Of a DNA stretch of 64,000 nt, positions 58,897 to 64,000 are shown in pieces. The stretch's first letter is position 1. Each line of letters opens with the position of its first letter. Source of the stretch: Jatrophihabitans telluris (GTDB lineage Bacteria > Actinomycetota > Actinomycetes > Mycobacteriales > Jatrophihabitantaceae). Where the stretch lies: positions 682,001-746,000 of the forward strand of contig NZ_CP097332.1 of the NCBI RefSeq assembly GCF_023516435.1, read 5' to 3'. A program made the translations under genes and the position numbers. The notes beneath the pieces are model-generated. The model did not search any database, had not been told where the DNA came from, and saw only the letters and a list, made by a program, of their open reading frames with translations.

Positions 58897-60315
58897 TCAG
58901 CCGGTCGGATCGGCCACCATCGTGCTGAACAGGATGGTGCCCGTCTCGGTGTCGCGCACCAGGAACAGGAAGGGGTGGTCGAACAGGCCCGGCGGCGGAC
59001 CGGCGACAGCGGACATGGCCACCCCGATGCCGGTGACCGCGGCGGCTTCGGTGCCGCTCTCGTCCACGGAGATGTAGTCGCGCTGCGCGACCGTCCCCAC
59101 CGAGCCGGCGACCCCCAGCCCGCCGAGGTCGGCACTGCTGCCGAAGGCTCGCCGCATGCCCAAGGCCCCCAGGGTCGTGTTCAGCGTTGTGTAGTCGGCG
59201 ACGGTGAACTTGGGGAGCGACAACGGCTCGCCGGATTGGACGATGGGGGTGAGCGTGCCGACGATCGTGCCCAGGCCCGTCGGGGAAAGGCCTGCGACGA
59301 AGTGGTCCAGGTCCTGGTGGTACGGCATGATCGCCAGCGCCGCGAAGCGACCGCCGGTGTAGGGAATCTGGACGGCCTGGTAGCCGGGAGTGAACACGCC
59401 GGACAGGCCCGATCCGCCCAGCGGCTCGTGCAGGAAATCCACCGTCCTCTCGGTGCCGTCCGCGCGGTGGAATGTGTCGGGCCTCGTGTTGGCGGCGTCG
59501 AATGCCTGTCGCCACCGAGCCTTGAAGTACACGGCGTTGGCCAGCACGAGCATCGTGCCGGGATCGAGCTGGCCGGGATCGAACAGCGTGGTGATCTTGC
59601 CGTGGGTCTGCGTCTGTACCCAGGCGTTGATCGCCGCCTCGGCGCTGGCCCTGCTGCCGAAGTTCACCTGCCAGACACCGGTGCGGAAGTAACGGGACAT
59701 CGCCTGCATGAACGGGTCCGCGAGCGTCAGGCCGCGCTGGACCCACAAGCTGTTGGCTGACTCCAGGGCGAGCCCGCTCCCCCCGGCGGCACCGGTGAGC
59801 ACGTCCATCACGGCCTGCCAGCCGGCGTCCTGCTGGGCGGAGCTCAGCCCGCTCGTGTGCAGCACGTGGGCGATTTCGGCGGCCGTCTGGCCCCGTGCCC
59901 CGGTCTGCAACATGGCCAACGCGATGGCCAGGCTCGATGGCGACAGCGCCACGTTGGAGCCCGGCTTGGCCGAGGCCACCTTTCGGAGCAGGTCGAGCGC
60001 AAAGGTTTGTTCCGCTACGGCCACCTGGGCCGCGCTGTTCGTGACGGCCGCCTGGGATCCCTGTGCGCCCGTTCCGTCGCGGTTCGGGGAGTCCGCGATG
60101 AGCTGGATGGCCGCTCCGGAATGGCCACTGACTCGCAATCCTCCGCCCGACGCCGCCGGGTGCCGCCCTTGTGCCGAGCCCACGGCCAGCCCGGCTACCA
60201 ACGCCAGCGCCAGTGGCCCCGCGATCAGGCCGACCCGGCGATACCGGCGGTGTCGCGGCCGGGGCGCCTGGGCGGCGGCGAGTTCGCTCTCAGACCCAGG
60301 ATCGAGCTCGCGCAT
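58897..60315 (-). CDS. Membrane-anchored serpin (serine protease inhibitor)
   Basis: 472 residues, with GAGGAG before the ATG. A basic cytoplasmic N-terminus (RPRHRRYRR) and one transmembrane helix (about 28-48) tether the serpin domain (about 100-470) outside the cell. Serpin landmarks: SPSSLAIALAMLQTGARGQT, ANAVYFKARWRQAF, and the reactive-loop hinge GTEAAAVTGIGV (421-432), which keeps the small residues needed for loop insertion, so it should be inhibitory. By the hinge rule P1 is near Ser435 (AMSAV), suggesting elastase- or subtilisin-like targets. The terminal HPFLFLVRDTETGTILF strand is intact. Confidence 0.9.
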   Translation of the reverse strand: MRELDPGSESELAAAQAPRPRHRRYRRVGLIAGPLALALVAGLAVGSAQGRHPAASGGGLRVSGHSGAAIQLIADSPNRDGTGAQGSQAAVTNSAAQVAVAEQTFALDLLRKVASAKPGSNVALSPSSLAIALAMLQTGARGQTAAEIAHVLHTSGLSSAQQDAGWQAVMDVLTGAAGGSGLALESANSLWVQRGLTLADPFMQAMSRYFRTGVWQVNFGSRASAEAAINAWVQTQTHGKITTLFDPGQLDPGTMLVLANAVYFKARWRQAFDAANTRPDTFHRADGTERTVDFLHEPLGGSGLSGVFTPGYQAVQIPYTGGRFAALAIMPYHQDLDHFVAGLSPTGLGTIVGTLTPIVQSGEPLSLPKFTVADYTTLNTTLGALGMRRAFGSSADLGGLGVAGSVGTVAQRDYISVDESGTEAAAVTGIGVAMSAVAGPPPGLFDHPFLFLVRDTETGTILFSTMVADPTG

Positions 60316-62234: not shown

Positions 62235-62735
62235 ATGGCCGACATCACCGCATTGATCATGGATGACCACGAATGGTTCCGAAGGCAGTTCGCGCGCCTG
62301 GACGACGCGAACGGGGTGGCGGAGCTGACCGCGATCTGGCAGCCGCTGGCCCAGCGCCTGGATACGCATGCCGAGGCGGAGGAGACGATCTTCTACCCGA
62401 GCCTGCTGCGCAAGGGCGATGACGCGCAGGAGGAGACCGACGACGCCGTCCGCGACCACAACAAGATCCGGGACGCCGTTGCCGAGGCCGGGAAGCATCC
62501 GGTCGGCAGCGATGCCTGGTTCGAGGCGGTAGGTCACGCCCGCACCGAGAACACCGACCATCTGGGTGAGGAAGAGGACGAGGGACTGCCCGATTTTCGC
62601 AAGCACGCCAGTGCGCAACTGCGCGACGAGCTCGCCCATCGCTGGCTGGCCTTCTACGCCGAACACCCCGCCGGACGCGGCATTTCCGGCGACGATGTCG
62701 ATCCCGAGAAGTACTTGGAGGACAGCAGCCCCTGA
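62235..62735 (+). CDS. Hemerythrin HHE-domain protein
   Basis: 166 residues. The diiron HHE four-helix bundle shows its ligands in MDDHEWFRRQF, HAEAEETIFYP, RDHNKIRDAV and NTDHLGEEEDEGL. These proteins bind oxygen, NO or metal, often in stress responses. The C-terminus is a short acidic tail. It is divergent from the racemase gene and upstream of the repeat-peptide gene. No clear ribosome-binding site. Confidence 0.85.
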   Translation: MADITALIMDDHEWFRRQFARLDDANGVAELTAIWQPLAQRLDTHAEAEETIFYPSLLRKGDDAQEETDDAVRDHNKIRDAVAEAGKHPVGSDAWFEAVGHARTENTDHLGEEEDEGLPDFRKHASAQLRDELAHRWLAFYAEHPAGRGISGDDVDPEKYLEDSSP

Positions 62736-62861
62736 GACGGGCGCACTCGTCGGACGACGGCAACCTCGCAGCGATTCCGCCCTGTTGCCCGTCCTCGATG
62801 ATCGCTAGGTTGAAGTGGCTAGATTCGGAGTGGGCAAGCAGAGGCCCCCCTTTTTCCCGCT

Positions 62862-62875
62862 GGACGGATCCGTCC
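62862..62875. promoter_or_regulatory. Perfect 14-base palindrome upstream of repeat-peptide gene
   Basis: GGACGGATCCGTCC is a perfect palindrome ending 29 bases before the ATG at 62905. A TAGATT (62820-62825) could be the -10. The palindrome may be an operator or a short hairpin in the leader. Confidence 0.35.
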
Positions 62876-62904
62876 GCGGGTGACTTTCGGCGAAGGAGTT
62901 GCAG

Positions 62905-63255
62905 ATGAGCGACGACGAAGTACAGGTCGGCGGCACCGAGGGCCCAGCTGACGGTGGCGCGGACGGCGTCCCCGGTACCAGCGATGGCGGTGCCGACGGC
63001 GGCGCTGACGGTGGTGCCGATGGTGGTGCTGACAGCGGCGCCGCCAGCGGCTCCGGTGGTGGTTCCGACCACGGCGCCGAAGGTCCCGCCGACGGCGGCG
63101 CCGACGGTGGTGCCGATACCGGTGCCAACACCCACGACGGCGGTGCCGACGGCTCGGCCGACAGTGGTGCTGAAGGTCCCGCTGACGGCGGCGCTGACGG
63201 TGGTGCCGACTCCGGTGCCAACACCCACGACGGCGGGGCCGACGGCGGCGCCTGA
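62905..63255 (+). CDS. Gly-Ala-Asp repeat peptide (possible modified-peptide precursor)
   Basis: 116 residues with a strong AAGGAG at 62893-62898. Apart from the first 10 residues (MSDDEVQVGG) the protein is built of GGADGGADG-type repeats, with a 27-residue block occurring twice (57-83 and 88-114, beginning GAEGPADGGADGG and ending NTHDGGADG). It has no Cys, Lys or Arg, two or three His, and many Asp. The two long copies differ mainly at third codon positions, so the peptide sequence is kept. The next gene, 36 bases on, is a JmjC-type protein hydroxylase. No family recognised; it may be the hydroxylase substrate (inference). Confidence 0.65.
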   Translation: MSDDEVQVGGTEGPADGGADGVPGTSDGGADGGADGGADGGADSGAASGSGGGSDHGAEGPADGGADGGADTGANTHDGGADGSADSGAEGPADGGADGGADSGANTHDGGADGGA

Positions 63256-63291
63256 GCGCTCGATGACCCGAACTGCTGCCAGGACTGCGCA

Positions 63292-64000
63292 GTGAACAAC
63301 GAAACCGGGGCTCCGGCCCGGCTCACCCAGCCGGGCCGGAGCTCTGCGCTGCGGCGTTGCATCGCCATCGGCACGGACGAGTTCGCTCACGAATACTGGG
63401 GTAAACGCCCGCTGCTCACCCGCGCCCGCGAGCTCGATTCGGGATCGCGAACGGCGCCCGAGGACCTGCTGTCCATCGCTGCGGTCGATGAGCTGATCTC
63501 TCGTCGCGGCCTGCGGACCCCCTTTGCCCGTATGGCCAAACAGGGCACCGTCCTGCCGGCGGCACGTTTCACGCGCGCCGGTGGCTCCGGCGCGAGCATC
63601 GCCGACCAGCTCGCCGACGACAAGGTGCTCGCCCAACTGGCCGACGGTTCCACGCTGGTACTTCAGGCCTTGCACCGGACGTGGCCCCCGCTGATCGAGT
63701 TCGGCAGCGAACTGGCCGCTGAGCTGGGGCATCCGATCCAGATCAACTCCTACATCACCCCGCCGCAGAACCAGGGTTTTGCGGCTCACTACGACACCCA
63801 CGACGTGTTCGTCCTGCAAGTGAGTGGACGCAAGCGCTGGATCATCCACGAGCCGGTGCTGCGCAATCCCCTACCCGAGCAGACCTGGGAGCAACGCAAG
63901 GACGAGGTCGCCGCGCGCGCGAAGCAAGCCCCCACCCTCGACGTCGTCCTCGAGCCCGGCGACGTGCTCTACCTTCCGCGTGGGTACTTGCACGCGGCCA
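63292..64000 (+). CDS. JmjC/cupin-type ribosomal-oxygenase-like protein hydroxylase (cut by right edge)
   Basis: The frame from GTG 63292 is open to the window end; about 236 of an expected 380-400 residues are visible. EYWGKRPLLTRA near the N-terminus, then INSYITPPQNQGFAAHYDTHDVF (shown only in part: AAHYDTHDVFVLQ) and DVLYLPRGYLHAA give the Fe(II) triad H166, D168 and H234. RKRWIIHEP lies between. This is the RoxA/YcfD (Cupin_4) group of 2-oxoglutarate oxygenases that hydroxylate Arg or His side chains of proteins. It follows a repeat peptide on the same strand by 36 bases. Confidence 0.85.
   Translation, partial: MNNETGAPARLTQPGRSSALRRCIAIGTDEFAHEYWGKRPLLTRARELDSGSRTAPEDLLSIAAVDELISRRGLRTPFARMAKQGTVLPAARFTRAGGSGASIADQLADDKVLAQLADGSTLVLQALHRTWPPLIEFGSELAAELGHPIQINSYITPPQNQGFAAHYDTHDVFVLQVSGRKRWIIHEPVLRNPLPEQTWEQRKDEVAARAKQAPTLDVVLEPGDVLYLPRGYLHAA

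Follow-up and report, generated by a model that had tools for sequence, protein, structure and literature searches.

At one end of the 64,000 nucleotides of Jatrophihabitans telluris DNA analysed here (the window), a short gene encoding little besides Gly, Ala and Asp lies directly ahead of a gene for a predicted 2-oxoglutarate oxygenase. Is this repeat peptide the substrate of the oxygenase, and which of its residues would then be modified? With moderate confidence, we favor a RiPP-like system: the oxygenase, which is of the NO66 type, would beta-hydroxylate Asp within the Ala-Asp-Gly repeats of the peptide paired with it.

The peptide gene and the oxygenase gene

A first-pass annotation of this DNA had described a 116-residue repeat peptide with a strong ribosome-binding site, 36 bases ahead of a JmjC gene on the same strand. 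This description is borne out (Table 1): the ribosome-binding site reads AAGGAG, the stop codon of the peptide is separated by 36 bases from the GTG of the enzyme at 63292, and the enzyme matches PF08007 at 102.5 bits against a curated cut-off of 22. The length of 116 residues counts from the ATG; the ORF listing begins the peptide at an upstream TTG, which gives 118. The segment MSDDEVQV is followed by Gly-Ala-Asp-rich repeats, and the duplicated 27-residue block containing NTHDGG that had been reported is found at residues 57-83 and 88-114, so that NTHDGG is present twice. The two copies agree at 26 of 27 residues, with 20 identical codons, 6 synonymous changes and 1 nonsynonymous change. 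Scans found no terminator-like site between the peptide and enzyme genes, and no sigma-70-like promoter within 62700-63450. Structure prediction gave the peptide no confident fold (mean pLDDT 48.5). Just 5' of the peptide gene, on the same strand at 62235-62735, a hemerythrin-domain protein is encoded (PF01814, E 7.8e-13), and at 58897-60315 on the minus strand is a 472-aa ORF with an N-terminal membrane segment, which by its motif we take to be serpin-like.

Table 1. Coordinates within the window of the features of the peptide gene and of the oxygenase gene
Feature	Position	Strand	Basis and remarks
Ribosome-binding site AAGGAG	62893..62898	+	Sequence; 6 bases 5' of the peptide ATG
Gly-Ala-Asp repeat peptide, putative precursor/substrate	62905..63255	+	116 aa, ATG start; homologues lie directly 5' of the same enzyme type
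N-terminal acidic segment MSDDEVQV of the peptide	62905..62928	+	Alignment and pattern count; putative leader
27-residue block, copy 1 (residues 57-83)	63073..63153	+	Direct repeat in the peptide
27-residue block, copy 2 (residues 88-114)	63166..63246	+	Direct repeat in the peptide
Predicted JmjC_2 (PF08007) 2-oxoglutarate oxygenase	63292..64000	+	Codons 1-236 of 427 lie in the window; gene end at G000:C1:746575
Putative Fe ligands H166 and D168 (HxD)	63787..63795	+	Invariant in 17 homologues; aligned with NO66
K181	63832..63834	+	Invariant in 17 homologues; aligned with NO66 Lys
Putative Fe ligand H234	63991..63993	+	Invariant in 17 homologues; aligned with NO66

The low-complexity DNA of the peptide is open in further reading frames too, so an ORF alone is insufficient to assign the frame, and we assigned it from the leader and repeat common to species together with their synonymous divergence. 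Synonymous against nonsynonymous differences between related species number 30:0 (L060/L080), 24:0 (L083/L099) and 27:1 (L113/L117); these pairs were selected at more than 86% amino-acid identity, a selection by similarity that lowers dN and biases ratios low, while raw counts such as 30:0 stand. The counts indicate that the peptide is under strong purifying selection, in line with the earlier reading of the mostly synonymous differences between the repeat copies.

The enzyme gene leaves the window and ends at L003:2576 (G000:C1:746575 in the host genome, one contig of 4.19 Mb), which gives a protein of 427 aa. The Fe-binding triad H166/D168/H234 named in the first-pass annotation is, like K181, unchanged across 17 aligned homologues. 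NO66 has H, D, H and K at the four corresponding positions, and its Lys we take to be the 2-oxoglutarate-binding residue; judged by this alignment, the catalytic residues of the enzyme are intact. The AlphaFold model of a homologue (L055, mean pLDDT 93.1) was compared with the PDB by Foldseek, and the top rows were NO66 (E 8.5e-29, TM 0.69/0.65, approximately 22-24% identity), followed by MINA, YcfD, YxbC and FIH. The enzyme is predicted to share the fold of NO66, MINA and YcfD over its full length, and its profile alignment with NO66 also extends to the C-terminus of NO66. The kinship with enzymes that hydroxylate protein side chains, also claimed before, is thus upheld: NO66/RIOX1, MINA53 and YcfD share PF08007, are the best PDB matches by both sequence and fold, and have the HxD...H and Lys residues in alignment. 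Unlike these enzymes, which act on ribosomal proteins according to their PDB molecule names, the enzyme studied here has a repeat peptide encoded next door and is patchy in its class.

Conservation of the pair across the class

An even sample of 393 genomes from the class, each 90% complete or more, was searched with an enzyme profile and, separately, with a peptide profile built on an aligned set of 18 peptides (threshold E 1e-4). The peptide was found by profile in 48 of the 393 genomes, and all 48 peptides lie directly upstream of the enzyme on the same strand, with a median gap of 69.5 bases between profile matches (range -7 to 291). Close enzymes, scoring at least 360 bits, are present in 60 of the 393 genomes, one of them (G288) split in two pieces; the next score is 262.6, and the 360-bit line was placed after this gap had been seen. 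A Gly-Ala-Asp peptide accompanies 56 of these 60, found by profile in 48 and by reading upstream in eight (G038, G062, G064, G068, G083, G110, G177 and G195). Two other close enzymes (G058 and G207) are preceded by Asp-rich peptides of another type and two (G108 and G287) only by an acidic non-repeat ORF. The first-pass annotation had held its proposal to be refuted if the hydroxylase were regularly seen without the peptide and the peptide without the hydroxylase; the proposal survived this check. The peptide occurs without the enzyme in none of the 48 profile-positive genomes, by a profile that missed 8 of the 56 known peptides and is therefore not fully sensitive, so that a few enzyme-less peptides could have escaped; the enzyme lacks the peptide in only the four cases just given.

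Among named species, at least 569 stretches encode relatives of the enzyme, and 79 of the best 80 of these are preceded by the peptide. In three it is imperfect, L063 and L107 being truncated at a contig end and L129 apparently frameshifted; at L119 a mere 123 bases are available upstream. Genera among these best 80 include Micromonospora, Salinispora, Actinoplanes, Geodermatophilus, Kribbella, Rhodococcus, Curtobacterium, Agromyces, Cellulomonas and Leifsonia, and the set overlaps with the 393 genomes (for example, L055/G007 and L075/G036). In a phylum-wide sample of 296 genomes, the peptide was present in 11, every one in the class of the window. Close relatives of the host gave an enzyme match in 28 of 41 genomes, some of them fragments or paralogues, and none in 13, for which reason we call the pair patchy. 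Plasmids yielded 166 records with an enzyme match, none covering 80% of the enzyme.

Recurrence across the class shows that the pair is not a chance association, and peptide and enzyme form a conserved two-gene unit; this conservation and the synonymous divergence of the peptide together rule out an artefact of GC-rich DNA. The arrangement is that of a RiPP, a ribosomal precursor encoded with its candidate modifying enzyme: the two genes are adjacent and on the same strand in 48 of 48 cases, and the peptide gene bears the marks of purifying selection. Searches with a single peptide also returned unrelated long ORFs in G017 and G022, which are low-complexity noise, the true peptides of these genomes lying upstream of the enzyme. 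In the host genome, such a search weakly matched a low-complexity stretch of a gene that we take to be RsfS-like (L004:4614-5201, minus strand; G000:C1:3154616-3155200). This gene has an Asp-rich tail with GGADGGADGD; matches to it in eight congeners stop near residue 121-131 (153 in one), ahead of the tail, which is therefore not shared in alignable form.

Because peptide and enzyme belong together in this way, the natural reading is that the peptide is the substrate of the enzyme, and on these comparisons it very probably is. The pairing also bears on two readings in which it would not be. The peptide could be an unmodified, disordered, hydrophilin-like stress protein unrelated to the neighboring enzyme, which would suit its Gly-rich, hydrophilic sequence, its low mean pLDDT and the lack of a recognised export gene nearby; with linkage in 48 of 48 cases and a peptide type that changes in step with the enzyme (see below), we regard this as very improbable. 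Alternatively, the enzyme could be a ribosomal oxygenase like YcfD or NO66 that acts on a ribosomal protein, the peptide being a neighbor with its own job or a regulator. Its full-length kinship with NO66, C-terminal domain included, agrees with this, but presence at 360 bits or more in only 60 of 393 genomes is odd for ribosome maintenance, and the two genes stay together and change type together, which leaves such a role improbable.

Repeat composition and the candidate modified residue

The consensus of the 18 aligned peptides starts M-x-I-N-DDD-I-T-T, followed by the unit EGPADGGANPxGHDGGADGSA about three times. Most homologues begin M-x-[IL]-[ND]-DDD-[IM]-[TS]-[TS]; the window peptide is one of the long variants, and its start, DDEVQV, is atypical. 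Across 77 peptides the cores consist of 39% Gly, 20% Ala and 15% Asp, with no Cys. Asp is present in every core (8 to 27 residues, median 12), and 857 of the 979 Asp residues are followed by Gly. His is missing from 13 of the 77 cores and Asn from 38, and the core at L197 is nearly pure GGAD.

To these we can add the peptides of more distant enzymes. We read upstream of 29 loci with enzymes scoring 262.6 bits or less, a non-random set from the upper part of the score list, and 23 are preceded by a short Asp-rich ORF. With types assigned by eye and Asp-richness a search criterion for part of the loci, 12 of these peptides have GDADGTDG-like repeats after a PLSDDDMTT-like start, 5 end in DSDGTDSSSDFI or similar, 4 have PSDGGGTGRSD or similar and 2 are of the DPDP kind; Streptomyces clavuligerus likewise has a DPDP-type peptide (WP_009999493.1) preceding its cupin protein. 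An upstream Asp-rich ORF was not seen at the other six loci (L209, L211, L232, L234, L238 and L241). Separately, an 84-aa ORF before a distant JmjC relative in genome G030 (L034:1096-1347) ends in SASTGCISNPSGPSC and resembles a lanthipeptide precursor rather than an Asp repeat.

On a quick tree of 86 enzymes, the eight peptide-type labels require 8 changes (minimum 7) versus 36.1 when shuffled, and none of 200 shuffles was as low; the tree holds at least one genome twice (L021/L075) and several long branches that make its deep joins unsure, and the shuffle tests label clustering alone. By this measure, peptide type follows the enzyme tree. Common to all the peptide types is Asp, mostly as Asp-Gly, while His and Asn are not universal.

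The first-pass annotation had proposed that the enzyme hydroxylates Asp, Asn or His of the peptide. The pairing behind that proposal holds, and the choice narrows to Asp, which is found in all 77 cores whereas His and Asn are each missing from some; we infer that Asp is probably the modified site. Modification could instead fall on His, as in NO66 and MINA, or on Asn, within the NTHDGG or PGGHDGGADG part, with Asp as a mere scaffold. The closest solved relatives, NO66 and MINA, are indeed histidyl hydroxylases, His is the commonest residue following Ala ahead of DGGADG (135 of 368), and the window peptide carries its NTHDGG in duplicate. Cores such as that at L197 and the lack of His in most of the distant peptide types read here weigh the other way, and we consider a His or Asn site unlikely. 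A further alternative is hydroxylation at Ala C-beta, or at Gly C-alpha with consequent backbone cleavage. Among the Gly-Ala-Asp-type peptides, Ala and Gly vary no more than Asp does, but it is Asp, not Ala, that the distant types have in common, and a site at Ala or Gly is accordingly quite improbable. Counting against Asp hydroxylation of the paired peptide, the characterised enzymes closest to this one modify ribosomal proteins at His or Arg, and two of the close enzymes are preceded only by the acidic non-repeat ORF, while 6 of the 29 distant loci showed no Asp-rich peptide.

Leader, neighboring genes and related systems

A simple pattern for the acidic start matches 70 of the 77 loci, of which at least three hits are spurious, and faulty parsing accounts for several of the seven misses. 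Among leaders of the other types, 18 of 23 fit a loose acidic-hydrophobic-x-T pattern; the five that fail are both SSSD-type leaders and three of the four PSDGGG-type leaders. On these alignments, the N-terminal motif is about as likely as not to be a leader. If it is one, the motif DDD[IM]xT would guide the peptide to the enzyme, perhaps to its C-terminal winged-helix domain. We considered an RRE in this position, which is unsupported by sequence: the PqqD-like domain PF05402 matches none of 16 C-terminal domains, even at E 10, and profile comparison with 11 PF05402 sequences gave probabilities of 0.3 and 0.4, supporting no kinship. RIOX1_C_WH matches one of the 16, weakly (E 0.23). For comparison with the three strands and then three helices of an RRE, the C-terminus of the L055 model has strands at 343-345, 352-356, 359-363 and 368-371 and helices at 373-382 and 398-410, separated by a short helical turn; a winged helix of the NO66 type would look similar. 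With an RRE unsupported by sequence, the idea that this domain binds the leader is conjecture.

Three genes follow the enzyme on the same strand in the host genome, encoding a sucrase/ferredoxin-like (Suc_Fer-like), a LapA-domain and a TauE protein. The first-pass annotation had pointed past the right edge of the window for export or protease genes. Among the best 80 of at least 569 named loci plus our own, the clusters recurring close to the enzyme include no recognised protease, export or transporter gene. What recurs instead is the Suc_Fer-like gene, directly downstream and on the same strand at 44 of 79 judgeable loci by tblastn among those best 80 of at least 569 (absent at 35; one locus too short) and at 35 of 81 by clustering of the best 80 and our own. 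In that set of 81, it is the only neighbor besides the peptide to recur near the enzyme across families. An FtsK/SpoIIIE gene on the opposite strand (22 of 81 loci), DUF2267 (12), DUF72 (10) and a cluster with no Pfam match (8) recur as well within the same best 80 and our own, but they are confined to loci of Micromonospora and its presumed kin, and we regard them as family synteny. At L003:6590-6915 (about G000:C1:750589-750914), direct copies of a GAGGGCAACCTCAACGGG-like unit lie beside inverted copies by eye, resembling an intergenic repeat cluster.

In yeast Aim32, a relative of Suc_Fer, a [2Fe-2S] cluster is carried by a ferredoxin domain that is thioredoxin-like (PMC8482512). The Suc_Fer-like protein may be an electron donor to the enzyme, and at about half of the loci it might hold the iron reduced. 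In the mechanism that we propose, the enzyme, with Fe(II), O2 and 2-oxoglutarate, would beta-hydroxylate the Asp of the repeated Ala-Asp-Gly units at many sites per chain, yielding a hydroxyaspartyl peptide that would be flexible and very acidic. Hydroxyaspartate binds metals and is familiar chiefly from small siderophores; metal-ion binding is the first candidate function for this product, though with low confidence. In its widest form, which we advance only tentatively, the proposal is that a metal-binding poly-(beta-hydroxy)aspartyl peptide is made in roughly one of every seven genomes sampled from the class, by a single leader-reading, NO66-like JmjC enzyme that works along at least a dozen Asp repeats. 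Such peptides would form a JmjC class standing on its own, with Asp-rich sister classes throughout the actinobacteria, and their enzyme would be related to the bacterial stock behind the ribosomal oxygenases of eukaryotes.

No Pfam, PHROGs or PADLOC model matches the peptide, and its NCBIfam matches are limited to MSCRAMM repeats with E values of 0.049 or higher, two homologues having none; the enzyme has no NCBIfam match, although Pfam places it in PF08007. No paper on the peptide or the pair was found in the literature covered, which leaves most subscription journals outside, and the pair seems to be undescribed. Among the nearest systems by description are those of BipG and PbsQ, which belong to RiPPs of the biphenomycin type (PMC12707348, PMC12257519): in them a JmjC- or cupin-type 2-oxoglutarate hydroxylase acts on a ribosomal precursor peptide, as we propose for our pair. 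As these accounts present it, however, theirs is one ornithine step among those of an MNIO, a B12 radical SAM enzyme, an arginase and a protease, whereas the oxygenase of our pair is the sole recurrent enzyme and faces a many-repeat, Asp-rich chain. JmjC (PF08007) proteins with RRE-like folds have been described in fish and algae, their closest bacterial homologues (approximately 30% identity) lying in RiPP-like contexts (PMC12710340); the section on those bacterial proteins names no Asp-repeat peptide, and our enzyme differs in the lack of sequence support for an RRE. Beta-hydroxyaspartate is itself reported on a ribosomal peptide for PesHI (PMC13060819), and RiPP Asp beta-hydroxylation for SmaO, as cited in PMC13097080. 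Both are described as acting at single named Asp sites in multi-enzyme pathways, in contrast to the dozen Asp residues of the median core here. According to these sources, then, JmjC/cupin hydroxylases acting on RiPP precursors and beta-hydroxy-Asp in RiPPs are already known. What seems new is a RiPP-like family whose one recurrent enzyme is a JmjC oxygenase and whose putative substrate is Asp-rich and built of many repeats.

Should Asp hydroxylation of the paired peptide prove correct, a common actinobacterial gene pair that has no family name would gain a substrate and a reaction, and a class of ribosomal peptides would have a JmjC oxygenase as its one recurrent modifying enzyme. The NO66/MINA fold would gain a natural, many-site peptide substrate, and the pair would be a source of peptides with regularly spaced hydroxyaspartates. 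Another RiPP setting for PF08007-like enzymes is found on plasmid pPg_03 of Pseudanabaena galeata, where a type 2 lanthipeptide synthetase gene has a PF08007-like cupin gene (L222:3947-5167, 31% identity) approximately 2.8 kb away.
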